33,324 bases of DNA from Gemmatimonadota bacterium. GTDB taxonomy: Bacteria; Gemmatimonadota; Gemmatimonadetes; Gemmatimonadales; Gemmatimonadaceae. This document shows positions 1,119 through 25,218 of the stretch, piece by piece. Made by a program: the position numbers and the translations under genes. The notes below the pieces were generated by a model that saw only the letters and a program-made list of their open reading frames with translations, made no database searches and was not told where the DNA came from. Positions within the stretch are counted from its first letter, which is position 1. Every line of letters begins with the position of its first letter. The DNA lies in contig CANHNQ010000025.1 of NCBI GenBank assembly GCA_947462095.1, forward strand, positions 1-33,324, written 5' to 3'.

Positions 1119-2243
1119 CTACGGCCGGTTCATGTTGCCACCACCCACCAGTGCGGCTCCGGTTGCCGGGGCCGCACTGCTGCTGGCCTTCACCGGCGGT
1201 TGCACCGGCGTCGCGGTCTTCGCCGTGCTGTCCGTCGCCGTCGTGGTGTCGGCTGGTGTTCCCAACCCTTGGAAGGGCACGCCGTTCCATTCGGCCCGAC
1301 CCCACAGGGCAGGGTAATGCTTGACCATCTGCGCGCCGTACAACGGCTTGTACGCGCCGTTGTGACACGTCACACACTGGGCCTTCGGCGCATCGCCCTG
1401 GGCGCCCAAACGCACCGCCGGGTAGACCGGCTGCAGCGGCGACAGGTAGTTCTGATTGACGTCGCGAAGCATCAGGATGCCGTGATACGCGGTGACACGC
1501 GCGGGCGGCGCTTCCTTCCAGCTGGCGAACTGACGGCTGTTGTGGCAGTAGGTGCAGTTGACGCCCAACGAACGGGACTGGGACATCATCAGCGCGTACG
1601 TCCACTCCGTCTGCTTCACCGAGCTTCGGTTCATGTTCGTCGGCGTCAACTGCTGCGTGACGACACGAGCACCGTCGCGATCGAGATAGTGCCGGAGGTA
1701 GTCGGTCTGGCTCGAGTAGAACCAGAGGCCGTTGGGCAGCGGCTTGCCCATGTGACACGTGTAGCAGGTGACGCCGGTGTTCTTCACGTGCTGCGAGTAC
1801 TGACCGTTGATCTGGCGGGTCATCTGCAGCATGCGACGGGCCACGAGCTTCGTGTACAGCGGCTTGCCGTTCGGCAGCGTGTCGGACGCGAGATTGGCGA
1901 TGTTGTGGCAGTAGGCGCAGTTGCCGGTGCCGGCCACCCAGGTGCTCATCGCCACCATGGTGCGGTTGAATTCACCCACCGAGATGTCGTTCAGCACCTG
2001 CACGTTCTGCCACGGCAGCGGACCCGGCGGCGACGCGCCCGCAGGGGGGAGCGGCGTGGGGATCTTCACCTGCGCGAACTTCGCCTTCAGGTCGCCATGG
2101 TCGTAATTCTGCTCCATGGCCGTTCCGCGGTACCCGACCTGAACGGAGTCCGTTCGGGCATCGCCGCACGCCCCCAACGACAGCATCGACAGGGGGATGG
2201 CCGCCGCGACGAGGCGGCGGCGCGTGGGTGTCAGGAAACTCAC
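1119..2243 (-). CDS. pufC: Photosynthetic reaction centre tetraheme cytochrome c subunit
   Basis: A 374-residue periplasmic lipoprotein that donates electrons to the photo-oxidised special pair. The start is a GTG overlapping the pufM stop (GTGA), with a GGAGG ribosome binding site nine bases upstream. An N-terminal hydrophobic segment ends in LSLGAC, a lipobox with Cys26 as the lipidated residue. Four CxxCH heme sites are visible: C109-H113 (CAYCH), C160-H164 (CYTCH), C230-H234 (CTYCH) and C290-H294 (CVTCH), in the two-plus-two arrangement of the family. After about residue 328 the chain continues as a Thr/Ala/Pro-rich tail of some 45 residues beyond the expected cytochrome fold. It is the last gene of the puf operon. 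The heme count, the lipobox and the position behind pufM make the call secure. Confidence 0.97.
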
Positions 2244-3409
2244 GGTGACTTTCCTCCAGCAGGAGCGGCGGGCGGCTTCGCGGCAGCGGGACCGGCTGCT
2301 GCCGGCGTCGCGAGGGAGTCAACTCGGGTCGAGTCTGCCGGCAGGGAATCCGCAGGCGTCATCAGGGCCGTCGAGTCGAGCATCATCGCGGGTTGCGGCG
2401 CCACGTATGTGGGGAAGGAGTCCGGTGCGGTCCCCTGATACCGGCCACGCAGCAGTTCCTGCTGTTCGGTCGTGAGGACGTTCTGCGCCGGATAGGGCGA
2501 GACCAAGCCGTGCTTGACACCCCAGAGATACCAGTTGTCCACCACGGTGCCCGTCAGCAGGATACCGATACCGCCGGTAAACGTGGTGAGCACGGCGAAC
2601 CACCAGGACCACCGATGGATCGACTCCATCGTCGCGTTGAAACCCATCGTCCAGCGCCAGAACAGCATGGAGCGTTCCGCGGCCGTCCCACGATCGGTGA
2701 TCTGCTCGATCTCGCGTTCGCCGCCGAGACGGGCCACCGCCAGAATCGTCGCGCCGTGCATGGCGAAGAGCACCGCGCTGCCGTACAAGAAGACGATCGA
2801 GAGCGCGTGGAACGGATTGTAGTACAGGTTTCCGTAGCGAATCGAAAAGGCCGACGTCCAGTCGAGGTGCGGGAAGAGGCCGAAGGGCACCATCTCACTC
2901 CAGCTGCCCACCAGCAGCGGCTGGAAGAAGAACGTGGAGTACAGGAAGATCGCCGAGCCGAACGCCCAGGGCAGATGCGTGCCCATGTTCAACGCGGTGG
3001 CACGACGATACACGCGCAGCCACCAGAGCAGAATGCTGACCGTCAAGAAGAAACCGGCCATCAGATACCAGCCGCCTTGCTGTAGTGGCGGAAGATGCAG
3101 TCCGTACTGTGGTGGTGGCGGCTCGAGCGCCAGCCACGGCAGCTGTCGAATGAATTCGACCGGATCCCAGCCCACCGACGCCCACATGTTCAGGCCGATG
3201 ATCTCGAAGGCGAGGAATCCGAAGAGCAGGGAGAACGTGCCAGCGGTTCCAAGATAGATCGGGCCGATCTGCGCGTCGCCGAGCTTGCCGGCGAGATACG
3301 AGAAGGTCCCCGTGCCCAAGCGTCCGCCCGGCGAATCCTCGATCGGGAGGCCCGCCTCGGGGACTGTACGGACTTGGACGCGCGTGAAGAGATTCTGGTA
3401 CTCAAGCAT
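2240..3409 (-). CDS. pufM: Photosynthetic reaction centre M subunit
   Basis: One of the two membrane subunits that bind the special pair, accessory pigments, quinones and the non-heme iron. The start [14 protein letters not shown] is chosen because it matches the family N-terminus and has AGGAG ten bases upstream; a longer in-frame start adds eight unneeded residues. Conserved ligands are present, each one position below Rhodobacter sphaeroides numbering: His181 and His201 (bacteriochlorophylls), and His218, His265 and Glu233 (iron). Five transmembrane helices are visible. The protein has 389 residues, while family members usually have about 305-330. The excess is a C-terminal tail from about residue 307 rich in Ala, Pro, Ser and Asp. 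It starts 14 bases after pufL and overlaps pufC by four bases. Confidence 0.97.
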
Positions 3410-3423
3410 CAGGTCGATTCTCC

Positions 3424-4248
3424 TCAGCGCCAAATCGGAAGATTAAGCCACCAGCCCCACCACTCCGGCCACCCAGACGACCAGAAGGGGCCTGAGATCA
3501 CGATACAGATCGCGCTCCAAATCGCCGCGCCCATGGCCAAAAACAGACCGAGCCGATGAATGCCAATCGCGCCGATCGAGTAACCCAGGAGATCACGGAA
3601 GAACACGTTCTCCGTTTCGCTCGTGCCCACCGGCGTTCCCTTCTTCGGATTCGTCACCGACAGAATCAGTGACCCGTGCATCGCTAGGGCGAGGCAGTTC
3701 GTGAAGAAGAACGTCACGGCGATCATGTGCGCCGGATTGTAGTGGAAGTGCAGGTACTGATACCCGACGTTCGACACCCAATCGAGATGGGAGAAGATGC
3801 CGTACGGGAAACCGTGTCCCCAGGCGCCGAGCAACACCGGCCGAATCACCACCAGGGTCACGTACGCGAGCACGGCAGCGCCGTAGGCAAATGGGATGTG
3901 CATGCCCATGCCAAGCTTCCGGCTGATCTCGGCTTGGCGGAGTGCCCAGCTGCCAAACGCACCGATCGCACACAGCGTAATGATCTGCCAGAGTCCGCCT
4001 TCGCGGAGCGGAGCGAAGCCCAGACCATACTTCAGGTCAGGCGGCGCAATAGAGATCTGCCAAAGGTTCCAAGTCGGACCCATGGCTGCGCCCCAGACAC
4101 AAAGCACCGTGCCAAGGACGATAAAGAAGATGGCCGAGACGCCGAAAAACCCTACGTAAAACGGACCGAACCAGAAATCGAAGAGATCTCCGCCGATCAG
4201 CGTTCCACCGCGTACACGGTACTTCTTCTCAAAACTGAGCATCGCCAT
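3424..4248 (-). CDS. pufL: Photosynthetic reaction centre L subunit
   Basis: A 274-residue membrane subunit of the type II reaction centre, of normal family length, with five hydrophobic helices. The start [15 protein letters not shown] is the standard PufL N-terminus and has GGAG nine bases upstream; the frame continues upstream to an unsupported start at 4317. Ligands match Rhodobacter sphaeroides shifted by one: His154 (accessory bacteriochlorophyll), His174 in YNPAHM (special pair), and His191 and His231 (non-heme iron). The segment [14 protein letters not shown] is diagnostic. The upstream spacer to the second pufA holds a strong hairpin, and the stop codon lies next to the pufM ribosome binding site. 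Confidence 0.97.
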
Positions 4249-4293
4249 GGGCGATTTCTCCAAGCGAGCGTCGAGGGCTAAGGCTGGCGTCGG

Positions 4294-4336
4294 CCGGAGA
4301 TGGCTTCGCACCGACACGTGCGAATCGCCACTCCGG
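4294..4336 (-). promoter_or_regulatory. pufA-pufL intercistronic hairpin (mRNA processing/stability element)
   Basis: A long stem sits in the 105-base spacer between the second pufA and pufL. Pairing is 4294-4299 with 4331-4336 (6 bp), 4301-4304 with 4327-4330 (4 bp) and 4305-4311 with 4318-4324 (7 bp), interrupted by a one-base bulge on one side and two bases on the other, with a six-base loop. No T-run follows, so it is not a usual terminator. In Rhodobacter capsulatus, hairpins at the same place protect the pufBA part of the mRNA from 3' decay, so antenna peptides are made in excess over the reaction centre. The same role is inferred here from position and strength. Confidence 0.7.
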
Positions 4337-4353
4337 CGTGGACGCGCGAAGAG

Positions 4354-4569
4354 TTACCGGCCGGGCGGGAGCGGCGACATGTCTGCCGCCATCGCCGGAG
4401 CCGACGCTCCAACGGGTGCCTGCACGGCGGACAGCGTCCCGTTCTCAATCCACGAGTAACGCTGCGAACTGAGCAGGATGAAATGAATGACAAACGCGAG
4501 TGCGCCTACAAAGCCGGCGACGGCAACCATCACTCGACGCGGGTCATACATCAGCCAAATACGATGCAT
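4354..4569 (-). CDS. pufA: Light-harvesting alpha subunit, LH1-like
   Basis: A 71-residue single-helix antenna peptide. The N-terminus MHRIWLMYDPRR is the classic alpha signature. His29 in VIHFILLS is the bacteriochlorophyll ligand, and Trp40 lies 11 residues after it, the same spacing as the LH1 alpha His-Trp pair in Rhodobacter sphaeroides. The chain ends in an Ala/Pro-rich tail of about 28 residues. AGGAG at 4575-4579 overlaps the stop codon of the preceding alpha gene. This is the more typical LH1 alpha of the two and most likely surrounds the reaction centre directly. It is the second alpha gene in the operon and directly precedes the intercistronic hairpin. Confidence 0.93.
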   Translation of the reverse strand: MHRIWLMYDPRRVMVAVAGFVGALAFVIHFILLSSQRYSWIENGTLSAVQAPVGASAPAMAADMSPLPPGR

Positions 4570-4578
4570 GACAGCTCC

Positions 4579-4749
4579 TTAACGGGTGGCGGCAGGTGCA
4601 GCCGTATTCGCGTATGTAGCCTTGAGCGAAGCCGGCCAATTGAACTGGCTGTACGCCCACAGGTGCATGAACAGCACGGCGCCTGCGATGAACGAGCCGA
4701 TGCCGCCCATAATCAGGTGTGGATCCAGCCCGATCCAAATGCGATACAT
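4579..4749 (-). CDS. Second light-harvesting alpha subunit, short and divergent
   Basis: A 56-residue peptide, unannotatable by length alone but clear by motif. It begins MYRIWIGLDPH like an alpha antenna subunit, has one transmembrane helix, and carries the ligand His29 in LFMHLWAYS. AGGAG lies at 4756-4760, six bases before the ATG. It differs from the downstream alpha: the aromatic FNW motif after the ligand is two residues closer (His29 to Trp38, +9 rather than +11), the residues after His are Leu-Trp-Ala-Tyr instead of Phe-Ile-Leu-Leu, and the C-terminal tail is short. It may build a distinct antenna ring or position. Sharing the single PufB as partner is an inference. Confidence 0.9.
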   Translation of the reverse strand: MYRIWIGLDPHLIMGGIGSFIAGAVLFMHLWAYSQFNWPASLKATYANTAAPAATR

Positions 4750-4793: not shown

Positions 4794-4937
4794 CTAGAAC
4801 CAGGGACGCCACGACCACGCCAACAGGTGCGCCATGACGGCGCCCATCACCCACACGCCCGTGCCCGCGATCCAGTACTTGTTGAAGCGGATTGCCTCTT
4901 CCTCCGTCATTCCGCCGCTCTTCTCGTACATCGACAT
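4794..4937 (-). CDS. pufB: Light-harvesting beta subunit
   Basis: A 47-residue beta antenna peptide, the first gene of the puf operon. The core MTEEEAIRFNKYW followed by one helix and AHLLAWSWRPWF is diagnostic, with His37 as the bacteriochlorophyll ligand. GGAGG at 4943-4947 lies five bases before the ATG at 4937, which favours it over a second ATG six bases downstream. The otherwise widely conserved His 18 residues before the ligand is Asn19 here. The stop codon is 44 bases before the short alpha gene. It is the only beta gene seen for two alpha genes. Confidence 0.95.
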   Translation of the reverse strand: MSMYEKSGGMTEEEAIRFNKYWIAGTGVWVMGAVMAHLLAWSWRPWF

Positions 4938-5121: not shown

Positions 5122-6003
5122 ATGACATCAAATTCGTCCCCCTCTCCCCTCGATCAGCTGCCGCCAGAGTGGCCCGATCGGGGCTGCTCCTCGTTCCACA
5201 CGGTTGGTCCCGTACGCTGGCACGTGCAACAGCAAGGGGACGGGCCAACGGTCCTCCTGCTGCACGGCACCGGCGGATCCACACACTCCTGGGCGTCCTG
5301 TACCGCGCCGTTGGCACGCCGGTACCGTGTGGTTGCCATCGATCTGCCCGGACACGGATTTACCCAGCCCGCTGACCGCGATGCCCGAACGCGGCAGCCC
5401 TTTGCCCTCACAGACATGGCCTCGGCCGTGGCCGCGCTCCTGCGGCAGTTGGACGTGCGCCCCCGTTTTGCCGTGGGGCATTCGGCCGGCATGCCCGTCC
5501 TGATGCAACTCGCCCTGCAGGGGGACATCGCGCCGCAGCATCTCCTCGGCGTCTGTCCGGCGCTGGTGCCCCCGCCGGCCTGGTATGTGCAACTCGTCGC
5601 GCCGGTGCTCGCGGCGGTCGTGGAGTCGGACGCCGTGGCGGCCGGTGGTGCCTGGGTCGCGCAGCGCACGCCGCTCGTCCGCCTGATGCTCGAGAGCGCA
5701 GGATCCGCCCTCACGGCGCCCCAACTCGCGCGCTACGAGTGGCTCTGTCGGCAGCCCGACCATGTCCATGCCGCGCTGTCCATGATGTCCCGCTGGGATC
5801 TGCCCGCATTGCTGCGGGAGGCGGCCACGCTACACACGCCGATCACACTGCTCGCGGGGCGTGCCGATCGGTGGGTGCCGTTGGCCGCGCTGCGGCGCGC
5901 CGCCGCCCGGCTGCCGGCGGCGACCTTGGTCGACGTTCCGGGGGGGCATCTCCTCCCCGAGGAGCATCCTGCCGAGGTGCTCTCCCGGATCGAGGGGCCG
6001 TAA
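5122..6003 (+). CDS. bchO: BchO, alpha/beta hydrolase linked to magnesium chelatase
   Basis: A 293-residue alpha/beta-hydrolase-fold protein. The oxyanion region LLLHGTGGSTHSW (about residues 46-58), the nucleophile elbow GHSAG (residues 118-122, Ser120) and a late His in PGGHLLPEEHP are visible. BchO genes travel with bchI and bchD and are thought to assist the magnesium chelation step, although the reaction is not defined. Here it is separated from bchID by about 6.6 kb and instead reads divergently from puf, sharing its control region with the PpsR-like sites. The start ATG has only a weak ribosome binding site. A generic hydrolase is the alternative, but the context and the GHSAG region favour BchO. 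Confidence 0.88.
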   Translation: MTSNSSPSPLDQLPPEWPDRGCSSFHTVGPVRWHVQQQGDGPTVLLLHGTGGSTHSWASCTAPLARRYRVVAIDLPGHGFTQPADRDARTRQPFALTDMASAVAALLRQLDVRPRFAVGHSAGMPVLMQLALQGDIAPQHLLGVCPALVPPPAWYVQLVAPVLAAVVESDAVAAGGAWVAQRTPLVRLMLESAGSALTAPQLARYEWLCRQPDHVHAALSMMSRWDLPALLREAATLHTPITLLAGRADRWVPLAALRRAAARLPAATLVDVPGGHLLPEEHPAEVLSRIEGP

Positions 6004-6075: not shown

Positions 6076-7530
6076 TTACGCCGTTGCGCCGGCAAGTCCA
6101 CGGCGCGAGGCGAGCACGTGGTCGCGAGTGACCGTGCCGTCGCCAAGCTCGCGGGCGTCCTTCTCCGACTGATCGCGCAGGCGCTTGGCCGCGCTGATGC
6201 GGATCAGAATCGGGTACGTCTCCACGATTTCATCGAACGTGCTCTTGGCCTCGTCGTCCCACGGCAACTCCTTGTGTACACGCGCCGGGGTGGCGTCGAT
6301 CTTGTCCATGTCCGTGCCCAACGGCAGGATGTGAAACAGCGCATCGAACAGCTGGTTGCACACTTCCTGGATCAGGTATGTCGCGCCGGAGTACCCCATG
6401 AACGGCGTCCCGAGATGGCGACGGATGATCGCACCGGGAAACGACGCCGGGATATACATCGATCGGGCACCGGTTTCCGCCAGATACATGCGCTCGTTAT
6501 AGCTGCCGAACATCATCAGCGGCGGCGTGGTGCGGATCGCTTCGCGTACGGCCTGATTGTCGGGCTTCACCCCCGGACGACGGGAGAATGCGAACGTACA
6601 CGGCAGCCCCATCTCCGTCTCCAGGAAATGGCGCACACCGCGGGCATACGTTTCATTGGCCACGATCGCGAAGCTGGCAGTGCCGAAAAAGTCCTGTGTC
6701 ACGCTGCGCCAGAGATCCCACAACGGTTTGATCGTCGTGTGCTTCTCCTTCTCGATGAACGGCTCGGGATCGAGCCCCAGCATCTCGCCCAAGGTCCGCA
6801 AGAACTTCGTCGTGCTGTGCAGTCCGATCGGCGCCTGTAAATACGGACGGTCGAGCGCTTCGCAGAGCATGCGGCCGAACTCGCGATACATGCAGACGTT
6901 GACATCGGCATCGACCAGGCGGGGCACTTCTTCCAAGTGGCTGCCCATCGGGAACACCATGTTCACTTCAGCGCCGATGCCTTCCACCAGCCGACGGATC
7001 TCCGCGAGATCGCTGGCCGAGTTGAAGTAGCCATAAATCGTGCCCACGATGTTCACGCGCGGCTTGTCGCCTTCCTTCTTCTCGCGACGCTTCGGGGCGA
7101 TGCCTTTCTTCAGGCCGTACTCGGTCCAGAGCCAGTACAGTGCCCGTTCGGCCGATTGCCACTGATCTTCATCAATGGTGCGCGGCAGGAAACGCTGGAT
7201 ATTCGTGCCTTCCGGCGTCACGCCACCGCCGATCATCTCAGCGATCGATCCCGTCACGACCACGGCGGGGAGTTCGGGGTCGAGCGTCTTGTGCGCACGG
7301 CGCATGGCGCCTTCGGTGCCATTCCGTCCGAGTTCGTCTTCGCCGAGTCCGGTAACCACAATGGGCAACTCGTGCGGGGGCAGCGCGTCGGTGTAGTGCA
7401 GTACCGACGTGACCGGGAGATTCTCGCAGCCGACCGGCCCGTCGATCACGACCTGCAATCCCTTGATCGCCGTGAACACGTACACCGCGCCCCAGTACCC
7501 ACCCGCGCGATCATGATCGAGCACCAGCAT
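6076..7530 (-). CDS. bchZ: Chlorophyllide a reductase subunit Z
   Basis: A 484-residue subunit of the catalytic (BchY-BchZ) component of chlorophyllide a oxidoreductase, which reduces the C7-C8 double bond of ring B to give the bacteriochlorin ring. It belongs to the nitrogenase MoFe-like family. Cys35 in GPVGCENLP is at the position known to supply the fourth ligand of the shared 4Fe-4S cluster. The N-terminus ([19 protein letters not shown]) is normal for BchZ, and so is the length. The ATG shares one base with the bchY stop (TGATG), so translation is likely coupled. It is last in the bchCXYZ operon, 30 bases before the bidirectional terminator. Confidence 0.97.
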
Positions 7531-9155
7531 CAGACCATCTCCTGCGCCTTGCGCGCCTTGGCCAGCTTGGCGAGATGGCGCTTGTAGTGGTCACGGAACT
7601 CGGGATGATCCTGCGGCACGTCTTCCCACACGCCGCTCGCGAACCCGGTGCCCACGCCCTCGAAGAACGCTGTCATGGTATCGAAGCGTGCCTTGTTGCC
7701 GAGCGCCGCGTTCACGACGGTGGCGAGCGAACCGGCACCGGCCGGGCCCATCAACGGGCGCGCGGAGATCAGATTCGTGAAGTACAGGGACGGGATCGAC
7801 AGCTCCTTCGCCTTCTGCACGACCGGCGTGGTGCCGATGGCGAGATCGGGCTTGAACTCGTGCAGCGCCGCCAGGTCCTGCTCGAGCGACGCGCGATACT
7901 GCACGTGAATGCCACGCGCCGCGAGCCATTCGCGATCGAGTTCGCTGTACGGCGTGCGAGGGCACGCGGTGCCCACATAGCGCACGTCGGCGCCGCTTTC
8001 CACCAGCAGTCGGGCGACGAGCAGCTCGGAGCCTTCGTACCCCGACATCGTGATGCGACCCGTGATCGGCATCTTGGCCAGCGCGCCCTTGATCATCGGC
8101 AAGAACTTGTTCTTGGCGGCATCAATGTGATCGCGCGAGACGCCCGCCATTTGCCCGATGGATTCGAGCCAGCTCTCGGTGCCGTCGTAGCCGACGGGCG
8201 CAGAACCCACGATGGGGCGGCCGGCCGCCGTGAATTCGCGGTACGACGCCGTGTAGAACGGATGAATCGCGGCCACGCCAACGCAGTCGAGTGCCGCGTA
8301 CAGCTCGCGCCACTCACGCGTGGGCACCACGGGGCCCGCCGCGAGTCCCATCGGCTCAAGCATCATGGCGATGCCGATGGGATCGACCGGAAACATTTCG
8401 CCGACCAACGTGACGGTGGGCTTCTCGCTGACGCCACCGCGCGGCGCCGCCACGGGCCCGAGCTCGGCCTCGGTGCGCGCATAGCGCAGCATCGCACCGG
8501 CCAGCACGTCTTTCGCTTCGGCATGCGTGGGCACGCCGAAGCCCGGCACGTCGATGCCGATGATGCGTACCCCGTTGATCTCCTTCGGCAGCAACTGCAG
8601 TGGCACGCCCGACGCCGTCGGAACGCACAGGTTGGTGATCACGATGGCATCGTACAGCGCGGGATCGGCCATCTTGTACACCGCATCGCGGATGTCTTCG
8701 AACAGCTGTCCCGTGACGAGGCTCTCGGAGTTGAACGGCACGTAGCCCACGGTGCGTCGCGCACCGTAGAAATGCGACGTGAACGTGAGGCCATACACGC
8801 AGCAGGCCGAGCCCGAGAGAATGGTGGCCGTGCGGCGCATACGCAGACCGACACGCAACGACCCGAACGCCGGGCACATGCTCTGCGGCTGATCGTGCGG
8901 GCCCTTCGGATAGTCGGCGGCGTAGCGATCCAGGGTCTCGCTCTTGCCGGCCGCTTTCGCTGCGGCAAGCATTTCGTCGGCGCCGGCGTGACAGCCAAGT
9001 CCGTCGGCGGCCGTGGCGGCGGTGTTGATCGCACCGCCGTCGATCACCGGCAGGGCACGGGACGTGGGCTGATCGGCATCGTTCGCCGTGGGCGTGCGGC
9101 CCGCGTCATCGTAGACGACTTCGCGAAGCCCGTCGCCGCTGGAGTGGTTGCTCAT
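7530..9155 (-). CDS. bchY: Chlorophyllide a reductase subunit Y
   Basis: A 541-residue partner of BchZ. Cys94 (QSMCPAFG), Cys119 (SACCVYG) and Cys177 (TNLCVPT) have the same spacing (25 and 58 residues) as the three BchY cluster ligands I recall for the Roseobacter enzyme (62, 87, 145). The pattern is shifted by 32, reflecting a longer N-terminal region. That extra region is Asp/Ala/Thr-rich and probably disordered. The gene begins 13 bases after bchX and ends in bchZ. The substrate is chlorophyllide a (or 3-hydroxyethyl derivatives), and electrons come from BchX. Confidence 0.97.
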
Positions 9156-16419: not shown

Positions 16420-17667
16420 TTACTCGTAGCGTAGCGCTTCGATCGGGTCGAGCCTGGCCGCTCGGCGGGCGGGCACCATCCCGAACACGATACCGATGCC
16501 GACCGAGACCACCACGGCGATGGCGGTCAGCTGCACGGGCACCGGTGCCGAGATGTCGAGCGCGAACGAGGCGACCCTGCCCAAGGCGAGGCCCACGACG
16601 ATGCCGATCGCCCCGCCGATACCGGTGAGTGTGCACGCCTCGACCAGGAACTGCAGGAGGATGTCGCCGCGCGTCGCCCCCATGGCCTTACGCACGCCGA
16701 TTTCCCGGGTGCGGCTGGTCACCGACACCGTCATGACCGCCATGACGCCGATACCGCCCACGAGCAGCGCGATGCTGGAGAGTACGACCATGACGAGAAA
16801 GAAGATGCTCGTCATGCCGTTGAAGGTCTCGAGAATCTGGTCCTGCGTGATCAGATCGAAGCTGTTGGGCGTACCCGGACGCAAGCCACGCAGCTCCCGG
16901 AGTGCCATGACGGCGGCCCCTTGGGCGTCGGATACCGTCACACCGGGCCGCGGTTTCACGGGAATCCACATGGCGTTCGTGCGGTCGATGGCGTAGCTGC
17001 GCTCCATGAAGTGAAAGGGCATGATCGCCCCCACCTTCTGACCGGGTGGCGCGAAGATATTACCGGGCTCCAGCCACAGTCCAATGACCTCGAGGGGGCG
17101 ACCACCGATGCGCACCAGACGGCCGATCATGCGCTCGCGACCGAAGAGCGTGCGCGCGGTCTCCTCCTGCAGCACGACGACCGGTGCGCCCGACGTGACT
17201 TCTTTGCGCGTAAACCAGCGGCCCTCCACGAGCTCGCCGCCCTGGATCTGCATGAACCCATCGTCGGCGCCGAAGATGGCCATCGATTGTGATCGTGTGC
17301 CTTCGGACTCAATGCGCGCGAGCATCTGCGCCCAGAGCGCGGCGTAGGCGACCTCGGGAAGACGGCGAAGACGTTCGGCTTCCCGCTCGTTCATATCGGG
17401 GCGGATACGAACGTCTTTGGGAAGATTGTCCGGATTGAGCGGCGTTTTGGAGAACTTCTTCAGCGCGTAGAACGTGGTGGGTCCGGCGATTTCGATCTGG
17501 GTGATGATCTGCGTGCGGATCCCATCCACGATCGCGGCCATCGCCATGACGGTCGCGACCCCGATCACCACGCCAAGAATCGTGAGCGCCGAGCGCAACT
17601 TGCTTACACGCAGGGCGTCGAAGGCAATGCGGACGTTCTCGGTTACCGCACCGACACGGAGTGCCAT
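16420..17667 (-). CDS. MacB/FtsX-type ABC transporter permease (copy 1, last in operon)
   Basis: A 415-residue permease with one N-terminal helix (ALTILGVVIGVATVMAM), a periplasmic MacB-like core domain of about 230 residues, and a C-terminal FtsX domain with three helices. Between them is the conserved SVTSRTREIGVRKAMGATRGDIL motif, and the end is LDPIEALRYE. The ATPase domain is absent, so it must use a separate ATP-binding subunit, probably the one at 21502-22308. It begins two bases after the preceding permease with CGGAG upstream of the ATG. Such proteins transmit ATP energy across the membrane to a MacA/TolC-type channel or to lipoprotein export. The substrate is unknown. It converges on puhE with nine bases between. 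Confidence 0.9.
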   Translation of the reverse strand: MALRVGAVTENVRIAFDALRVSKLRSALTILGVVIGVATVMAMAAIVDGIRTQIITQIEIAGPTTFYALKKFSKTPLNPDNLPKDVRIRPDMNEREAERLRRLPEVAYAALWAQMLARIESEGTRSQSMAIFGADDGFMQIQGGELVEGRWFTRKEVTSGAPVVVLQEETARTLFGRERMIGRLVRIGGRPLEVIGLWLEPGNIFAPPGQKVGAIMPFHFMERSYAIDRTNAMWIPVKPRPGVTVSDAQGAAVMALRELRGLRPGTPNSFDLITQDQILETFNGMTSIFFLVMVVLSSIALLVGGIGVMAVMTVSVTSRTREIGVRKAMGATRGDILLQFLVEACTLTGIGGAIGIVVGLALGRVASFALDISAPVPVQLTAIAVVVSVGIGIVFGMVPARRAARLDPIEALRYE

Positions 17668-17669
17668 GC

Positions 17670-18941
17670 TCAGGTCTCCGCGCGCATAGCCGTGATCGGA
17701 TCAAGCTTGGCGGCGCGGGACGCGGGATAGACGCCGAACGCCACGCCGATGGTGGCGCCGAGCGAGAGTGCCAAGGCCACACTCCACGGCGACACGACGG
17801 CCGGCAGCGGAGAGAATGTGGTGATCAACGCGGACAGCCCCCATCCGGCGATCACACCGAGCACACCACCGCTGAAGGCGAGTGCGATGGCCTCCGCCAG
17901 AAACTGGCGGCGCACATCGGTTGACGTGGCACCCACCGCCTTTCGCAGGCCAATCTCGTGTGTACGCTCGGTGACCGCCATCAGCATGATGTTCATGATC
18001 ACGATGCCACCCACCAGAATGCCGATAGCCACGACTGCCGGTACAACGGCAAACAGCACTTTGGTCAACTGCGTCCAGAACTCGACGAATGCTTCGCCGG
18101 TTCCGATGTCGAAGTTGTCCCGTTCCGAGGGGCGCAGTCGGCGCGCCAGTCGCATCGCCTCCTGCGCGCGCCCCATCGCGGGAGCGACCTCGCCCGCTTC
18201 ACGCATTTTCACCGAGATCGTGCTGTTCTGCCGGAGGCCGTAGATGGACTCGAACGAGGAAATCGGCATGAGCACGAAGCCGTCGAACGACTGTCCGAGC
18301 ACTCGACCTTTCGGAGCCACCACGCCGATGATGGTGAACCGTTGGCCCATGATGCGGACGTCCTGATTGATCGGCGACGCACCTTGGAAGAGGTTGAGCG
18401 CCACGTCACTGCCGATGACAATCACTGGACGCCGCTCCCGGACGTCGAGCTCGTTGAGCGGACGTCCATCAGTGAATCGATAGTCTTGGACGGTCTGATA
18501 GCCTTCGGTCACGCCGAAGACCAGCACGCTGCCCAGCGAACGATCACGCCAGACGACATCGGCCTGCGGCGTCGGCCACCCGGACTGCAAGGCAATGGCC
18601 TGCGCGTCCGGCAGCGCCTTCGCCACGGCGTCCGCGTCACGTTCATCCACACGCGGCCGTCGTCGTAACAGGCTGAATTCGTCGTCGGTGAAGAGTCCGA
18701 GACTGATCGGCAGGCGTCGCACTTGAAAGGTGTTCATGCCGATCATGGCATCGGCGATGTTCTCCTTGACGTACGCGTTCATTCCCTGAATGATCGCCAC
18801 GACCGCCACAAGGAAACCGACCGAAACGACGATGCCCAGCAGCGTGGCGGCGGTGCGCAGCGGATTGACGCGAAGCTGCAAGACCGACAATCGAATGATG
18901 TCGGAGAAGCGCATGCGGGAGGCCGCTTCCCGATTACTCAT
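17670..18941 (-). CDS. MacB/FtsX-type ABC transporter permease (copy 2)
   Basis: A 423-residue permease of the same architecture: helix AATLLGIVVSVGFLVAVVAIIQG, periplasmic MacB core domain, then the FtsX domain with AVTERTHEIGLRKAVGATSTDV and the end LDPITAMRAET. The start ATG at 18941 overlaps the upstream gene by eight bases. A second ATG at 18914 (MRFSDIIRLSVLQLR) would remove nine residues and cannot be excluded. The sequence differs considerably from copies 1, 3 and 4 in the periplasmic part, so this looks like an old paralogue and not a recent duplication. Confidence 0.9.
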   Translation of the reverse strand: MSNREAASRMRFSDIIRLSVLQLRVNPLRTAATLLGIVVSVGFLVAVVAIIQGMNAYVKENIADAMIGMNTFQVRRLPISLGLFTDDEFSLLRRRPRVDERDADAVAKALPDAQAIALQSGWPTPQADVVWRDRSLGSVLVFGVTEGYQTVQDYRFTDGRPLNELDVRERRPVIVIGSDVALNLFQGASPINQDVRIMGQRFTIIGVVAPKGRVLGQSFDGFVLMPISSFESIYGLRQNSTISVKMREAGEVAPAMGRAQEAMRLARRLRPSERDNFDIGTGEAFVEFWTQLTKVLFAVVPAVVAIGILVGGIVIMNIMLMAVTERTHEIGLRKAVGATSTDVRRQFLAEAIALAFSGGVLGVIAGWGLSALITTFSPLPAVVSPWSVALALSLGATIGVAFGVYPASRAAKLDPITAMRAET

Positions 18942-20190
18942 GCCGGAGCGCTTCGACCGGGTCAAGTCGCGACGCACGCATGGCGGGGAGCATGCCGAAC
19001 GCCACGCCGGTGACCGCGCTCGCGATCAGTGCGGTTGCCACGATACTGCCGGGGAGCGTGGCAGGGATCGACGTGTTCGTGCGTATCACCCACGCCAGCA
19101 GCGCACCGAGTGCGAGTCCGACGAAGGCGCCGATGCTGGTCATGGTCGATGCTTCCACCAGAAACTGCCAGCGAATCGTGCCCGACGTGGCACCGAGCGC
19201 CTTTCGTACGCCGATTTCGCGCGTGCGCTCCGTGACCGAAATCATCATGATGGCGACGACACCCACTCCGCCGACCAGCAGGGCGACGGCCGACAGCGCC
19301 AGACCGACGGCGAAGATGGCGCCGAACAGTTGGTTGAAGGTGTCCATCAAGCGATCCTGCTCCACGAGATAGAACGTGGCACGGTCGCCGGGGCGCAGTC
19401 CGCGGCGGGCGCGCATGGACGCCAGCACCTCGTCCATGACCTCCCCTTGCGATACCGTCCGCAGCGGGCGAACCAAAAGACTGAGACTGTTACGCGACAC
19501 ATCAAGACTGCGCACCGCCGCTTGGATGGGAATGATCGCGCGCGGGGTGTCCGGCCCCTTGCCCTCGAGCGACTTCAGAAAGCCGGCCTTGGGCGCGTAG
19601 ATCCCGATGACGGTGAACTGTCGACCGCTGATCATGATCTGTTTGCCGATCGCATCCGACTCGCCGAACAGTTGCACTTTCAACGTATCGTTCACGAGGA
19701 CCACTGGCTGTCCGGCGTCGTACTCGGTACGCGTAAAGTTGCGCCCCGGGAAGATGTCGGAGGCATCGACCGACGGCCATTCCACGCTGTAGGCGTCGTA
19801 GCCGACGTTGTCCACGCGACTGTTGCGATACGCGAAGTTCCCCTGGCCGCCGAGCACGCCGATGACGTTCTCCACGCCCGGGATGCGCTTGATCATCTCC
19901 CACTCGGCGAACGAGATCGCCGGGTTGCTGCGATCCGGGCACTTCTCGTCGGTACCATCGCAGCCGCTGATGCCAGAGCTGCGGCGCTGCACGATGAAGG
20001 TGGTCGCGCCGATCTGCTCGAGGTCCTGCTGGAACGAGGCGCGGATCCCATTCACGACCGCGCCCATGGCGACGACCACGAATACCCCGATAGCCACACC
20101 GGCGATGGTCAGGGCGGCGCGTACCTTGTTCGAGCGGATCGATTCCAGTGCCATTCCGACACCTTCAAAGACCAGTAAGAATCGATTCAT
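18934..20190 (-). CDS. MacB/FtsX-type ABC transporter permease (copy 3)
   Basis: A 418-residue permease: N-terminal helix ALTIAGVAIGVFVVVAMGAVVNG, MacB-like periplasmic domain, FtsX domain with SVTERTREIGVRKALGATSGTI and the end LDPVEALRHE. The periplasmic part has a pair of cysteines (SGCDGTDEKCPD, about residues 77-86) not seen in the other copies, which may form a disulphide. AGGA lies upstream of the ATG. It starts four bases after copy 4 and overlaps copy 2. Confidence 0.9.
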   Translation of the reverse strand: MNRFLLVFEGVGMALESIRSNKVRAALTIAGVAIGVFVVVAMGAVVNGIRASFQQDLEQIGATTFIVQRRSSGISGCDGTDEKCPDRSNPAISFAEWEMIKRIPGVENVIGVLGGQGNFAYRNSRVDNVGYDAYSVEWPSVDASDIFPGRNFTRTEYDAGQPVVLVNDTLKVQLFGESDAIGKQIMISGRQFTVIGIYAPKAGFLKSLEGKGPDTPRAIIPIQAAVRSLDVSRNSLSLLVRPLRTVSQGEVMDEVLASMRARRGLRPGDRATFYLVEQDRLMDTFNQLFGAIFAVGLALSAVALLVGGVGVVAIMMISVTERTREIGVRKALGATSGTIRWQFLVEASTMTSIGAFVGLALGALLAWVIRTNTSIPATLPGSIVATALIASAVTGVAFGMLPAMRASRLDPVEALRHE

Positions 20191-20194
20191 GCGA

Positions 20195-21457
20195 TTAATC
20201 CTGGCGCAGTGCGGTAATGGGGTCCAGTCGCGACGCGCGACTGGCAGGATACAGGCCGGCGGCTATCCCGACGCCCGCTCCGGTGACGAGCGCCGCGACG
20301 ATGGACCACGGTGCCACGGCAGCGGGAAGCGGCGTGAACGCGGCGATGAGTTCGGCGAGTCCGATCCCCAAGCCAATGCCGATCGCGGCACCGAGTGTGC
20401 TGAGGGTGGCCGCCTCGACCAAGAACTGCGACAGGATGTCGGCGCGCTTGGCGCCGAGCGCCTTGCGCACACCGATTTCGCGCGTGCGTTCGGCGACGGC
20501 GACCAGCATGATGTTCATGATGACCATCGCACCGACCACGAGACTGATGGCGGGAAGCGCGGTGCCGAACAGCACGAGACGACCTTTGAGTTGCTTGATG
20601 AAGCCGAACGCGGCGTCCTGGGTGATGAGGCCGAAATCGTCGGGCTCTCCCGCACGAAGGCCGCGAAGCGAACGGAGGGCGCCGCGGGCGGCTTCCATAC
20701 CGTCCGGCAGATCCGCTTGCGTGGGGGCCTGCACGATCAGCGACGAGATGTCACGCAGCGGGCGAATGATGCGCCCCATCGGTGACGTGTACGGCGCGAT
20801 GGCATTGCGGTCGAGTGAGAACCCGAACACCGATCCCTGCTTCTCGATGACACCGATCACCGTGAACGGCACGCCCGCGACACGGAGCTGCCGTCCTTCG
20901 GGGTTGAGCCCCGGGAAAAAATGCTCGGCGACCTCCGTGCCGATCACGATCACCCGCGCGCCGGAACGCACTTCCTGATCTGTGAAGGCCCGGCCAACCG
21001 TTACCGGAAAATTCTTGATATCGAAGTAGTTCGCATCGGTCGCGACGGCCTGGACTTGCCGCGGGCGGGCGCCCGGCGCCGACGCGTACTTGAACGTCTC
21101 GCTTGAGATACTGGACTTCATCGTGGCGGGGATCGCCGCGCGAACGGCCTCGATGTCGGGCATTCTGATCAGCGGCCGCCGCTGGGCGGACCGTGCGTCG
21201 AAGCCGCGATTCCCCCCGGGGCCGACATTGCTGAATCGCCGCAGCGTGAACGTGTTACTGCCGATCAGTCGGGCGGCAAAATCTTCTTCGACGTAGCGCC
21301 CCATCCCTTCAACGATGGAGACCACGGCGATAAGGAACATCACGCCAATGGTCACCCCCAGGAGGGTGAAGGCGCTCTTGAGTTTCTGAACTCGAATCTG
21401 GGTCAGCGCCAGACCGATCGCGTCTCGTGTTTTCACGTTGGATTGAATGACAGCCAC
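20195..21457 (-). CDS. MacB/FtsX-type ABC transporter permease (copy 4, first in operon)
   Basis: A 420-residue permease with the same layout: helix AFTLLGVTIGVMFLIAVVSIVEG, MacB core domain, FtsX domain with AVAERTREIGVRKALGAKRADIL and the end LDPITALRQD. The periplasmic half holds a Gly/Arg-rich stretch (RRFSNVGPGGNRGFDARS). The start is a GTG at 21457 without a clear ribosome binding site; a second GTG at 21436 is possible. It is 44 bases behind the ATPase gene. Copies 2 and 4 share the MGRYVEEDFAARLIG/MNAYVKENIADAMIG type of segment after the first helix, so these two may be the closer pair. Confidence 0.9.
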   Translation of the reverse strand: MAVIQSNVKTRDAIGLALTQIRVQKLKSAFTLLGVTIGVMFLIAVVSIVEGMGRYVEEDFAARLIGSNTFTLRRFSNVGPGGNRGFDARSAQRRPLIRMPDIEAVRAAIPATMKSSISSETFKYASAPGARPRQVQAVATDANYFDIKNFPVTVGRAFTDQEVRSGARVIVIGTEVAEHFFPGLNPEGRQLRVAGVPFTVIGVIEKQGSVFGFSLDRNAIAPYTSPMGRIIRPLRDISSLIVQAPTQADLPDGMEAARGALRSLRGLRAGEPDDFGLITQDAAFGFIKQLKGRLVLFGTALPAISLVVGAMVIMNIMLVAVAERTREIGVRKALGAKRADILSQFLVEAATLSTLGAAIGIGLGIGLAELIAAFTPLPAAVAPWSIVAALVTGAGVGIAAGLYPASRASRLDPITALRQD

Positions 21458-21501
21458 TGCAGGTCCGGCCGGTGGATACCGACCGGGTCGTACCGCACCA
21501 C

Positions 21502-22308
21502 TCAGTGCACGCGCTCGCCGGACAGCTTGACGGCGTATTGAGCGCGTGTTTCGTCGCTTGAGATGACGCCGTCGCGCAGCACGATGATGCGCTGGGCGTG
21601 CACGGCGATGTCCGGTTCGTGTGTGACCATGACCACGGTCTGCCCCTGTGCGGCGAGCTCTTCGAACACGCGCATGATCTCTTCCGAGGTCTGCGAGTCG
21701 AGGTTGCCCGTGGGTTCATCCGCCAGCAGAATGGACGGACGATTCACGAGGGCGCGCGCGATGGCAACACGCTGGCGCTGACCACCGGAGAGTTCGTTCG
21801 GCCGGTGATGCATGCGCTGGCCGAGTTGCACGCGTTCCAACGCTTCCGTGGCGCGCTTCTTCCGTTCATCGGCCGAGATGCCGGCGTACACGAGCGGGAG
21901 TTCGACGTTCTGCAGCGCCGATGCGCGGGGCAGGAGGTTGAACGTCTGAAACACGAATCCGATTTCCTTGTTGCGCACGCGGGCGAGCGCATCGTCGGAC
22001 ATCGTGCTGACCAGCATGCCGTTCAGCCAGTACTCGCCTTCGTTCGGCGTGTCGAGGCAGCCGATGAGATTCATGAGCGTCGACTTGCCGGATCCCGACG
22101 GCCCCATGATCGCGACATACTCGTTGCGCCGGATGGCGAGATCGACGCCGCGGAGGGCGCGGACGATTTCACCACCCATGTCGTACTGGCGCTTCAGCTG
22201 TCGCGTCACGATGACCCAGTCCTTGCCCGGGGCGACGCCGGCGGCGGTGGTGACCGCCTGGCGCTCTCCGGTGGTGCTGAGTCCGATGTCGTCGAGTGCC
22301 TTGCTCAC
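21502..22308 (-). CDS. ABC transporter ATP-binding protein, MacB/LolD type
   Basis: A 268-residue ATPase subunit. Walker [10 protein letters not shown] is at residues 69-77, the signature [15 protein letters not shown] starts at 173, Walker [13 protein letters not shown] at 193-204, and the H-loop His is at about 230 (VMVTHEPD). The sequence follows the MacB/LolD subfamily ([35 protein letters not shown]). About 30 residues precede the usual fold. The start is a GTG that overlaps the adaptor gene stop (GTGA). It is the only ATPase for the four downstream permeases. Confidence 0.95.
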
Positions 22309-23591
22309 GGCGTTTTTCCGGCGGCCGGTGCCTTCTTGTCCTCGACCTTCGCCGTCTTGATCATGGCGCCGTCCTTGAGTTCGCGGATCGCCTGATACGT
22401 GCCGGCCACGATGGTCTCGCCGCTCTTCAGACCGTCGAGCACTTCGAAATGACGCTCGCCGGCGATCCCGACCTTCACGGGGCGGAAGCTGACTTTGTTG
22501 TCGGTCCCCACGACGAAGACGCCTTCCACGTCGCGCTTGCCCACTTCCTTCGTCGGCTGGCGGCCCACCGTCACGGCCGAGTCGCCGTTCGGGAGGTCTT
22601 CATTTTCGCGAACCGTGAGGGCGATGATCGGAATGCTGAGCACCTTGGTCCGCGACGCCGTCACGATCTTGGCCGTGGCCGAAAAGTCGGGGCGGGTGTC
22701 CTGCGGCGGGTTCACGAGCTCGACGCGTACTTCGTAGTCGATGGCCTGGTCGCCGGTGGTCGCGGCGGCCGACTTCGTGACCGAGCTGTTCGAGATTTCA
22801 ACGACGCGGCCGACAAACGTGGTGTCGGGGAAGGCGTCGATCTGGATGAGCGCCGAGTCGCCCACGCTGATACGCGCGACGTCGGTTTCGTCGACCTTCA
22901 CCTTCGTTTCGAGCACACTCATGTCGCTGATCGTCATGAGTGTCGCCGCATCCTTGTTCAGCGTACCCATGATGGCCGTTTCGCCTTCTTCCACATTGAG
23001 GCGGGTAATCTTGCCGCTCATGGGGGCGATGATCGTCGTCCGGTTGAGCGCCTGACGCGCGTCACGTACCGAGGCCACGGCCTGATCCACGCTGAAGCTG
23101 GCGGCCGCCGCCAATTCCTTGTTCACGTCGGCCTGCGTCTTGAGCTGTTCGAGCTGCTCGTCGCTAACGAGTTCCGGCGACTGCTGCTTGATCTTGAGTG
23201 AGCGCTCGTAGTTGCGCTGGGCCTGCAGCAGGCTGGCGCGCGACTGCGCGGCCTGCGCGCGGGAGGACGCCAGAAACGCCTCGGAACGCTGGAGGGCGGC
23301 CGTGACCTGCTCCGGGTCGATCTGCAGCAGGAACTGCCCCTTCTTCACGACGTCGCCTTCCTTCACGGAGAGGCGCACGATCTTGCCGGTCACGTCGGCC
23401 GAGACATCGACTTTGGTGCGCGGCTGAATCTGTCCGCTGGCGGTGACCGACGCGACGAGGTCACGCGTCTCGACCGCTTCGGTGCGCACTTCGACCGGCT
23501 TCGTGCTGTTCTTCTTCGCGCTGATTACGGCAAGGGCGGCAACGGCGATGACTACGACGCCGCCAATCCCGATTTTTACACCTTTCGTCAT
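22305..23591 (-). CDS. MacA/HlyD-type periplasmic adaptor protein
   Basis: A 428-residue membrane fusion protein. One N-terminal helix ([18 protein letters not shown]) anchors it in the inner membrane. It is followed by a beta-barrel/lipoyl half ([23 protein letters not shown]), an alpha-helical hairpin (about residues 110-180, with [24 protein letters not shown]), the second lipoyl half ([20 protein letters not shown]) and a C-terminal barrel. It links the inner-membrane permeases to the TolC-like channel encoded 12 bases upstream. The end is Lys/Ala/Pro-rich. Confidence 0.93.
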
Positions 23592-23603
23592 GACTGGTCT
23601 CTG

Positions 23604-25103
23604 TTAGCGGATGGGACGGCCGACGGCATTTTCCAGCGCCGCGAATGCCCGTTGTACATCGAAGACGGCCGTGATTCGGTCGGTCTCGGCGCGCTCGTAG
23701 TCGCCGCGGGCCTGTACGAGATCGACGATGCTGATAGCCCCGACGCGGTAGCGCTCTTGCGCCAGCGAGAGGGCCGTGCGGGCGGTACGCACGTTCTGTT
23801 CCTGCAGGACCACCGTTTGCTGCGCCGTGCTGAGCGAGAGGTACGCCGCTGTCACGTCAGCCGTGACGCGCAGTTCCTGCGCGCGCACATCATTCTGGGC
23901 GTTGCGGCGCTGCACGCTGGCCTGCTCTACTTGCTGCTCGCGACGCCACCCGTTGAAGACCGGCACGGAGAAGGATGCCGACAGCGAGTACGGGTTGCGT
24001 GTGAAGTCGAACGGATACTTGCTCTGCGCCGCACGGATGGCGGCTTCCTGCGCCGTCGTGAAGGTAACCGCGTTGCACTGGGACAGATTGTTCGGCAGGC
24101 CGAGGCGGTCGCGCACCTCTTCACTGCGGATGCACGAGGCCTTGCCGGCGAGGGTGCTCGTCTGGCTCTGGCTGATGAGCAATCCGGTGTTGGTGAAGCG
24201 GTTCGTGAACGCCGAGACGTTGGCCGACAGCGAGAGCGACGGGAAGTACGCGCTGCGGGCCGAGGCCTGCGTGCGTCGGGCCGATTCTTCGCGGGCGCGG
24301 AAGGCGCCGAGCGCCGGGTTGCTGCGGCGGGCCATCTCAAGAATGGCCGGAAGATCGATGGCTGGCGGAGCGGCAAGGTTGGCGTCCAGTTTTGCCTCAG
24401 CGGGCGCATCGATACCGATGGCCTGGAAGAGGCGGACGATTTCGATGGCGGCCTGATTCCGCGTGTTCAACGAGGCGACGCGCTGCTGTCCGTCGGCCAC
24501 TTCGGCGCGCTGTACGTCGAGCTGCGTGCCGGAGCCGACCTGAAGCCGCGCGCGGGCCAACTGCAGCTGCGTCTGCGTGGTCGCCTGCAGGGTGTCCTGC
24601 AGCGCTGCCCGCGCCTGTGCCTGCAGTGCCGTGAGGTACTGATTGGTGACCTCGTTCCGCACACGCTGCTCGGCCGTGGCGATGTCGGCTTCGGTTGCAT
24701 TCTGGTTCGCCTGCGCCGCACGCTTGTCGTTCAGGGTCGCGAGCGAGAGCTGCAGGTTGGCATTGACCGAGGCGTCCGTCGAGAGCTGGTCGTTGGTGGA
24801 CCCGAAGGCCTGGCCCTGGAGAAAGGTCTGGCGTCCTTCACGATAGCCGCCACCCATGCTCGTGTTGACGCTCGGGAGGAACGCGCCCTTCGCGGAGCGA
24901 ACCGCGGCGGCGGCTGTCCGCCGGGCGTTGATTGATGTCTGCAGCGCGGGATTGTTCCGGCGTGCGAGCGCCAAGGCGTCCGTGAGCGTGATGACAGCCC
25001 CCGGAGCAGGGGCGGTCTGCGCTGTGGCGAGTGTCGGGCCGATCCCGACGACTGCCAGGCTGACCGCGAACGCGTAGGCGAATGCGTATGCGTGAATTCT
25101 CAT
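23604..25103 (-). CDS. TolC-family outer membrane efflux protein
   Basis: A 499-residue outer membrane factor that forms the exit duct of the export system. The start ATG at 25103 gives a signal peptide (MRIHAYAFAYAFAVSLAVV, cleavage near ATAQ); an ATG at 25127 would lengthen it by eight residues. Two internal repeats typical of TolC are visible, each beginning with a helix such as LTDALALARRNNPAL and, in the second half, ILEMARRSNPALGAF. It ends with AFAALENAVGRPIR, common in this family. It opens the seven-gene operon. The 115 bases upstream hold a TTGACT and a weak GGAG/CTCC inverted repeat but no convincing promoter. Confidence 0.93.
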   Translation of the reverse strand: MRIHAYAFAYAFAVSLAVVGIGPTLATAQTAPAPGAVITLTDALALARRNNPALQTSINARRTAAAAVRSAKGAFLPSVNTSMGGGYREGRQTFLQGQAFGSTNDQLSTDASVNANLQLSLATLNDKRAAQANQNATEADIATAEQRVRNEVTNQYLTALQAQARAALQDTLQATTQTQLQLARARLQVGSGTQLDVQRAEVADGQQRVASLNTRNQAAIEIVRLFQAIGIDAPAEAKLDANLAAPPAIDLPAILEMARRSNPALGAFRAREESARRTQASARSAYFPSLSLSANVSAFTNRFTNTGLLISQSQTSTLAGKASCIRSEEVRDRLGLPNNLSQCNAVTFTTAQEAAIRAAQSKYPFDFTRNPYSLSASFSVPVFNGWRREQQVEQASVQRRNAQNDVRAQELRVTADVTAAYLSLSTAQQTVVLQEQNVRTARTALSLAQERYRVGAISIVDLVQARGDYERAETDRITAVFDVQRAFAALENAVGRPIR

Positions 25104-25218
25104 GGGGACGAAGCAGGTGGAGGACATAGTCAAGGGGCGTACGCATCCCGAGCTGTGATGGTTTCATTCGACACGCGCACGGAGGGTGGATCTCTCCGCA
25201 GGCGTCGGCGGCGACGTG

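Follow-up and report, generated by a model that had tools for sequence, protein, structure and literature searches.

The photosynthesis genes described here lie in a stretch of 33,324 nucleotides from a Gemmatimonadota bacterium (the window), and they very probably code for a double-ring photosystem (RC-dLH), its antenna as well as its reaction centre. The window is a fresh member of the RC-dLH photosystem already in print for Gemmatimonas phototrophica and G. groenlandica. Its two alpha antenna genes are homologues of the structure-proven alphas of the outer ring (LHh) and the inner ring (LH1), and therefore the assignment of one alpha to each ring, which had been a guess in an earlier sequence-only reading of this DNA, holds by homology and is further supported by the shared beta (PDB; excerpted text of PMC12817894).

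Antenna and reaction-centre genes of the window

The puf genes are arranged on the minus strand in the order pufB, outer alpha, LH1 alpha, pufL, pufM and pufC. They adjoin bchO, bchZ, bchY, bchX and bchC, and thus form part of a photosynthesis gene cluster. The names pufA2 and pufA1 follow the excerpted text of PMC12817894.

1119..2243, minus strand: pufC, reaction-centre cytochrome subunit (NF040706 photo_cyt_PufC, E 4.7e-105)
2240..3409, minus strand: pufM, M subunit of the reaction centre, putative start MLEYQN (TIGR01115, E 5e-154)
3424..4248, minus strand: pufL, L subunit of the reaction centre, putative start MAMLSFEKK (TIGR01157, E 3.4e-126)
4293..4337, minus strand: predicted strong hairpin in the pufA1-pufL spacer (best 48-base window, -32.3 kcal/mol)
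4354..4569, minus strand: pufA1, inner-ring alpha (LH1-alpha), 71 aa (9h19_Aa, E 1.6e-37; 7o0u_aa, E 4.4e-37)
4579..4749, minus strand: pufA2, outer-ring alpha (LHh-alpha), 56 aa (7o0u_AA, E 4.3e-23)
4794..4937, minus strand: pufB, beta polypeptide, 47 aa (best PDB match 7o0u_BA, E 8e-14; PF00556)
5122..6003, plus strand: bchO (TIGR03056, E 2.9e-67)
6076..7530, minus strand: bchZ (TIGR02014, E 3.8e-240)
7530..9155, minus strand: bchY (TIGR02015, E 3.7e-210)

Both alpha frames were found where the sequence-only reading had placed them, and the single beta of its two-alpha, one-beta operon lies just beyond the interval 4354..4749 that it covered. The translations also bear out its description of the two proteins. 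LHh-alpha contains ...MHLWAYSQFNW..., with His29 to Trp38 at +9 and Leu-Trp-Ala-Tyr immediately following His29, and LH1-alpha contains ...IHFILLSSQRYSW..., with His29 to Trp40 at +11 and a tail rich in Ala/Pro. The remaining key residues of LHh-alpha are Gly15, Trp31, Tyr33 and Phe36, and the beta has Asn19 at -18 from its ligand His37. All three antenna proteins pass the cut-off of the Pfam LHC family (PF00556), LHh-alpha barely so (23.9 bits vs 23). Beside the photosynthesis cluster, a run of large minus-strand ORFs at 16420-25133 resembles a MacB/efflux-type transporter set by eye.

Comparison with the alphas of G. phototrophica, which the reading had proposed, was performed with phmmer against the PDB. 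The first alpha is nearest to LHh-alpha, with 9h19_AA of G. groenlandica (2.5e-15) ranking after the G. phototrophica chain and the best other chain at 6e-5. The second is nearest to the LH1 alphas, those of both Gemmatimonas species leading, and the best match of the beta is the single beta of the Gemmatimonas double-ring complexes. Chance is no explanation of the three genes, given these matches (4e-23, 2e-37 and 8e-14) and a gene order conserved in 34 of 34 genomes with an outer-ring alpha. Against the RC-dLH assignment count the moderate similarity of the beta to those of Gemmatimonas and its Asn at -18, where 22 of 34 betas have His.

Two alphas alone are no proof of two rings, since complexes with more than one LH1 alpha exist: 7vrj, a PDB match here, has alpha1, alpha2 and alpha3 in one complex, and multiple LH1 alphas occur in some purple bacteria. 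That both alphas of the window sit in one mixed inner ring without an outer ring is nonetheless improbable, because its LHh-alpha is much nearer to LHh-alpha than to any chain outside the two Gemmatimonas LHh-alphas, and the two species known to have such an alpha pair form double rings. A still smaller probability, close to negligible, is given to a separate LH2-type (puc) antenna having moved into the puf operon, even though the outer ring of G. phototrophica is optically LH2-like (excerpts of PMC12817894 and PMC10214105). Of the 31 PDB matches that the window LHh-alpha gives with E no higher than 1, none carries an LH2 name (B800-850 or B800-820), whereas the LH2-type alpha of a relative (G135) hits chains so named with E-values of 4e-20 to 6e-20. 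The window protein is also without the MNxGKIW-like start of that alpha, and no alpha/beta pair was found elsewhere in the window genome by PF00556. This search of the window's own assembly (3.64 Mb, 215 contigs, 82% complete), which bears on the reading's point that antenna genes elsewhere could account for an outer ring, returned three LHC genes, all of them puf. It is not final at this completeness, and a further antenna gene could be absent from so fragmented an assembly. The double-ring assignment remains the preferred one.

In the window species puhA, the gene of the reaction-centre H subunit, is likewise split into Ht and Hc, as in the known RC-dLH system, and lies on a contig (C37) other than that of puf. 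PF03967 matches two frames, with ORFs of 66 aa and 180 aa in ATGA overlap, and the 180-aa ORF matches PDB chains named 'RC-Hc' or 'reaction centre Hc' at E 3e-98 to 6e-102. A single unassigned ORF from the puh region, compared with the PDB as a speculative candidate for RC-S or RC-U, gave no match.

In the solved complexes the inner LH1 ring has 16 units and the outer LHh ring 24, with one beta shared and the alphas differing (excerpted text of PMC12817894). The description of the G. phototrophica rings in the excerpts of PMC10214105 agrees, and presents the double-ring complex as the largest among RC-LH1 complexes. By analogy, LH1-alpha and beta of the window would form the inner ring round the reaction centre, and LHh-alpha with copies of the same beta would form the outer ring, from which excitation would be passed inwards; one beta would then be common to both rings. 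The way the rings assemble and their unit numbers (16 + 24) would follow the solved Gemmatimonas complexes.

The excerpted text of PMC12817894 links outer-ring colour to the side-chain conformation of Trp31 (816 vs 860 nm) and B800 binding to Ser15. It adds that B800 is absent in G. groenlandica, and that AlphaFold 3 fails to recover the Trp31 conformation of that species. Ser15, the G. phototrophica-type B800 site, is absent from the window LHh-alpha; it is no defining feature of RC-dLH, because G. groenlandica is without B800. B800 is probably weak or absent in the window complex, because Gly15 would remove the sole hydrogen bond that holds B800 in G. phototrophica. Since Trp31 is kept, the outer ring of the window species could be of either type, 816 nm or 860 nm. 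The expectation that an altered hydrogen-bonding residue shifts the colour was misplaced as to position: the residue linked to colour in the excerpts of PMC12817894 is Trp31 (His+2), through its conformation, and not the +9 Trp.

Outer-ring genes, single-alpha relatives and split puhA in the phylum

Among 395 Gemmatimonadota genomes, LHh-alpha was found in 29 and PufM in 44, the 29 included. A search of 30 genomes of the window's genus added five LHh genomes, giving 34 in all, with G. phototrophica (G039) and G. groenlandica (G074) among them; the LHh-alphas of these two are identical to the 7o0u and 9h19 chains, respectively. A tree of PufL+PufM was built from these 34 and from six of 13 single-alpha genomes. 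In it the LHh genomes, including the window's, form one clade (100/99). This clade supports the assignment of the window, and it fits an outer ring that arose once.

All 34 share one gene order, from beta through outer alpha and LH1 alpha to pufL, and in G385 the puf pieces are split over two contigs. The spacer between the alphas takes two forms. It has 9-10 bases in 22 genomes, including the window's and G039, whereas in 12 it has 85-176 bases and is predicted to form a hairpin (G074 is one of these; loci L104, L102, L105, L109 and L103, and seven g2 loci). Downstream of pufA1, the best 44-50-base window reaches -29.7 to -44.2 kcal/mol in all 34, that of G203 not being a single hairpin. For the pufA1-pufL spacer, z was computed in 31 of the 34 genomes and ranges from -1.1 to -4.2; in the window it is -2.8 (100 shuffles). 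In purple bacteria, a hairpin after pufA1 makes the pufBA portion of the transcript more stable. The predicted hairpin at 4293..4337 is a possible mRNA-stability element, and the operon layout, with beta first, then outer alpha, inner alpha, hairpin and L-M-C, may parallel a falling demand of 40 : 24 : 16 : 1.

Fifteen genomes have PufM but gave no LHh-alpha match, and their puf loci were read as well. Thirteen of them show one puf alpha only; the loci of G145 and G337 are cut by contig ends and stand outside this count. Seven of the 13 fall in family f5; these may correspond to the SG8-23 phototrophs that the excerpts of PMC9426454 treat as separate. Five belong to the window's family (G135, G282, G393, G170 and G245), and G320 belongs to the window's order. 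No beta was seen beside the puf alpha of G289. The excerpted text of PMC12817894 writes of the photoheterotrophs of the phylum as two-ringed, and the 13 single-alpha genomes would, on their gene content, depart from this picture. In five of them (G135, G393, G093, G151 and G289) an alpha/beta pair lies away from puf, and LHh-alpha was not found in these five genomes:

L209:2263-2850: LH2-like alpha/beta pair outside puf
L210:2247-2774: LH2-like alpha/beta pair outside puf
L211:2314-2740: LH2-like alpha/beta pair outside puf
L212:2117-2468: LH2-like alpha/beta pair outside puf
L213:1989-2406: LH2-like alpha/beta pair outside puf

The extra alpha of G135 is the one of the five that was compared with the PDB, with the LH2 matches given above. 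An ORF downstream of several of these pairs is PucC-like by eye. None of the 34 LHh genomes, many of them incomplete assemblies, has a PF00556 match outside the puf locus. PF00556 is weak for LHh-type alphas, and the negative result therefore covers only LH2-like genes present in the assemblies. The pucB mentioned in the excerpts of PMC12817894 concerns a purple bacterium, and single-alpha relatives (13 of the 44 phototrophic genomes), five with an LH2-like pair, were not found in the excerpted Gemmatimonas photosystem papers. Such relatives, of which some carry LH2-like genes, set limits on the point at which the outer ring originated. Away from puf, G245 has an LH1-like alpha fused to an OmpA-family domain (L208:2553-3227, minus strand; PF00556 matches residues 46-86 with E 5.8e-13, PF00691 matches residues 125-197 with E 8.5e-14), a fusion that could tether antenna to the cell wall.

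A joint origin of the split puhA and the outer ring is suggested in the excerpted text of PMC12817894. PF03967 was searched in 25 genomes, with ORFs inspected in four. Two-frame matches, which in a draft genome can reflect a sequencing error, were found in nine genomes that lack LHh-alpha, namely G245, G170 and the seven from f5, and also in G145, whose LHh status cannot be judged. One-piece matches were found in G135, G282, G393, G337 and G320, and PF03967 gave no match in G244. The joint origin is not borne out by these matches (puhA loci such as L214, L215, L216 and L217), and the split therefore seems not to be tied to the double ring.

Residue variation in the outer ring and exchange of pufA2

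His29 is invariant in the 34 LHh-alphas, and the surrounding positions vary. Position 31 is evenly divided, with 17 Trp and 17 Phe. At position 33 there are nine Tyr and 25 Phe, the latter including every one of the 17 Phe31 forms. Residue 38 is Trp in 29 and Tyr in five, and residue 15 is Ser in 12 and Gly in 15, as in the window. The beta residue at -18 from the ligand His is His in 22 and Asn in 12, the window included. On the PufLM tree, residue 31 changed at least six times and residue 33 at least eight times. The window (Trp31/Tyr33/Phe36) falls in a clade of nine (support 97/95), the other eight of which are all Phe31/Phe33/Leu36 (G290, G400, G395, G399, G397, G297, G269 and G172). Outside this clade stand G396 (Phe/Phe/Leu) and G219 (Trp/Phe/Phe). 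These differences would have consequences for colour. The Trp31/Phe31 variation was not found in the excerpted Gemmatimonas photosystem papers. The 34 gene sets provide a natural series at residues 31 and 33 that is useful for testing outer-ring tuning, and since close pairs differ mainly in pufA2 within puf, the published Trp31 colour claim can be tested without mutants.

Exchange of pufA2 between relatives is clear in the case of G339. Identity between G339 and G352 is about 98% in both pufL and pufA1, but 78% (126/162) in pufA2; their synonymous divergence is 0.70 in pufA2 and 0.07 in pufL, and somewhat raised (0.23) in pufB. The LHh-alpha of G339 is identical in protein to that of G. phototrophica (G039), with pufA2 DNA 96% identical and pufL only 90% (differences at 6/162 sites in pufA2 vs 111/1143; Fisher 0.012). 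With groups chosen after the alignments had been seen, pufA2 data reject the grouping of G339 with G352 and G366 (AU p 1.8e-12), and pufL+pufA1 data reject its grouping with G039 and G079 (AU p 1.3e-6). In 200-base bins over 11.6 kb, the mismatch between G339 and G352 is highest in the pufA2 bin (0.18; next 0.10).

The evidence for exchange in G079/G055 and in the window is suggestive. Synonymous divergence between G079 and G055 is 0.48 in pufA2 vs 0.05, and 29/162 vs 18/1143 sites differ. The two still group together, weakly, on the pufA2 tree, and in bins over 18 kb the mismatch is 0.15 in pufA2 and up to 0.16 elsewhere; the swap is therefore suggestive only. Between the window and G290, 16/75 bases differ in pufA2 codons 21-45, a tract chosen after looking, compared with 10/423 in the flanks, which comprise pufA1, pufB and the remainder of pufA2 (Fisher 2.5e-8), and the tract changes are synonymous in eight codons and replacing in four. 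The same excess was found against four other close relatives (p about 1e-8 to 2e-8), and none against G297 and G269 (p 0.19 and 0.27). Among themselves, the five close relatives show more difference in the tract than in the flanks in seven of ten control comparisons (p < 0.05), and a regional scan for the window case has its maximum elsewhere, upstream of pufB. No donor of the tract was found among 22 other same-genus sequences, the nearest (G303) being 12/75 bases off. So short a tract in a fragmented assembly could also be a choice between strain variants.

We suggest, with somewhat less than even confidence, that pufA2 is an exchangeable colour module in phototrophic Gemmatimonas. The whole gene, or short stretches of it including the codons of residues 31-36 around the bacteriochlorophyll, would be replaced through recombination between lineages, with pufA1 and the reaction-centre genes left in place. 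Such replacement would help to switch residue 31 between Trp and Phe and residue 33 between Tyr and Phe, such that near-identical species would differ in outer-ring colour, the window being the Trp31/Tyr33/Phe36 form in a Phe/Phe/Leu clade. If this is true, Trp31 forms would be able to make the hydrogen bond linked to the red shift and Phe31 forms unable. A title-level literature search found no paper title on such recombination in Gemmatimonas.

Comparison with known photosystems

LH2 and LH3 (B800-850 and B800-820) of purple bacteria are likewise peripheral antennas whose colour is set by aromatics near the bacteriochlorophyll. The residues concerned are alpha Tyr44/Tyr45, changed to Phe/Leu. 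They differ from the system of the window in their separate pucBA genes and separate small rings (excerpts of PMC12817894 and PMC10214105), and the window LHh-alpha is without a match to LH2-named chains.

The RC-dLH of G. groenlandica (PDB 9H19/9H22), with a single 860 nm band, has the same double-ring architecture (excerpted text of PMC12817894) and the same gene set as the window, and its LH1 alpha is the top PDB match of the window LH1-alpha. Its LHh-alpha is 50% identical to that of the window and has an SITGWPK motif and Ser15/Phe19, and the spacer between its alpha genes has 85 bases with a predicted hairpin, which the window is without.

The RC-dLH of G. phototrophica (PDB 7O0U-7O0X; LH1 16 + LHh 24), in which the ring is held by subunits RC-S and RC-U, differs from the window in Ser15, which binds B800 and is replaced by Gly15, and in the beta residue at -18, which is Asn in the window for His. 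The two LHh-alphas are 70% identical, with His29, Trp31, Tyr33, Gln35 and Trp38 in common. The operon content is the same, in the order B-A2-A1-L, and the 9-base spacer between the alpha genes and the split puhA are as in the window.
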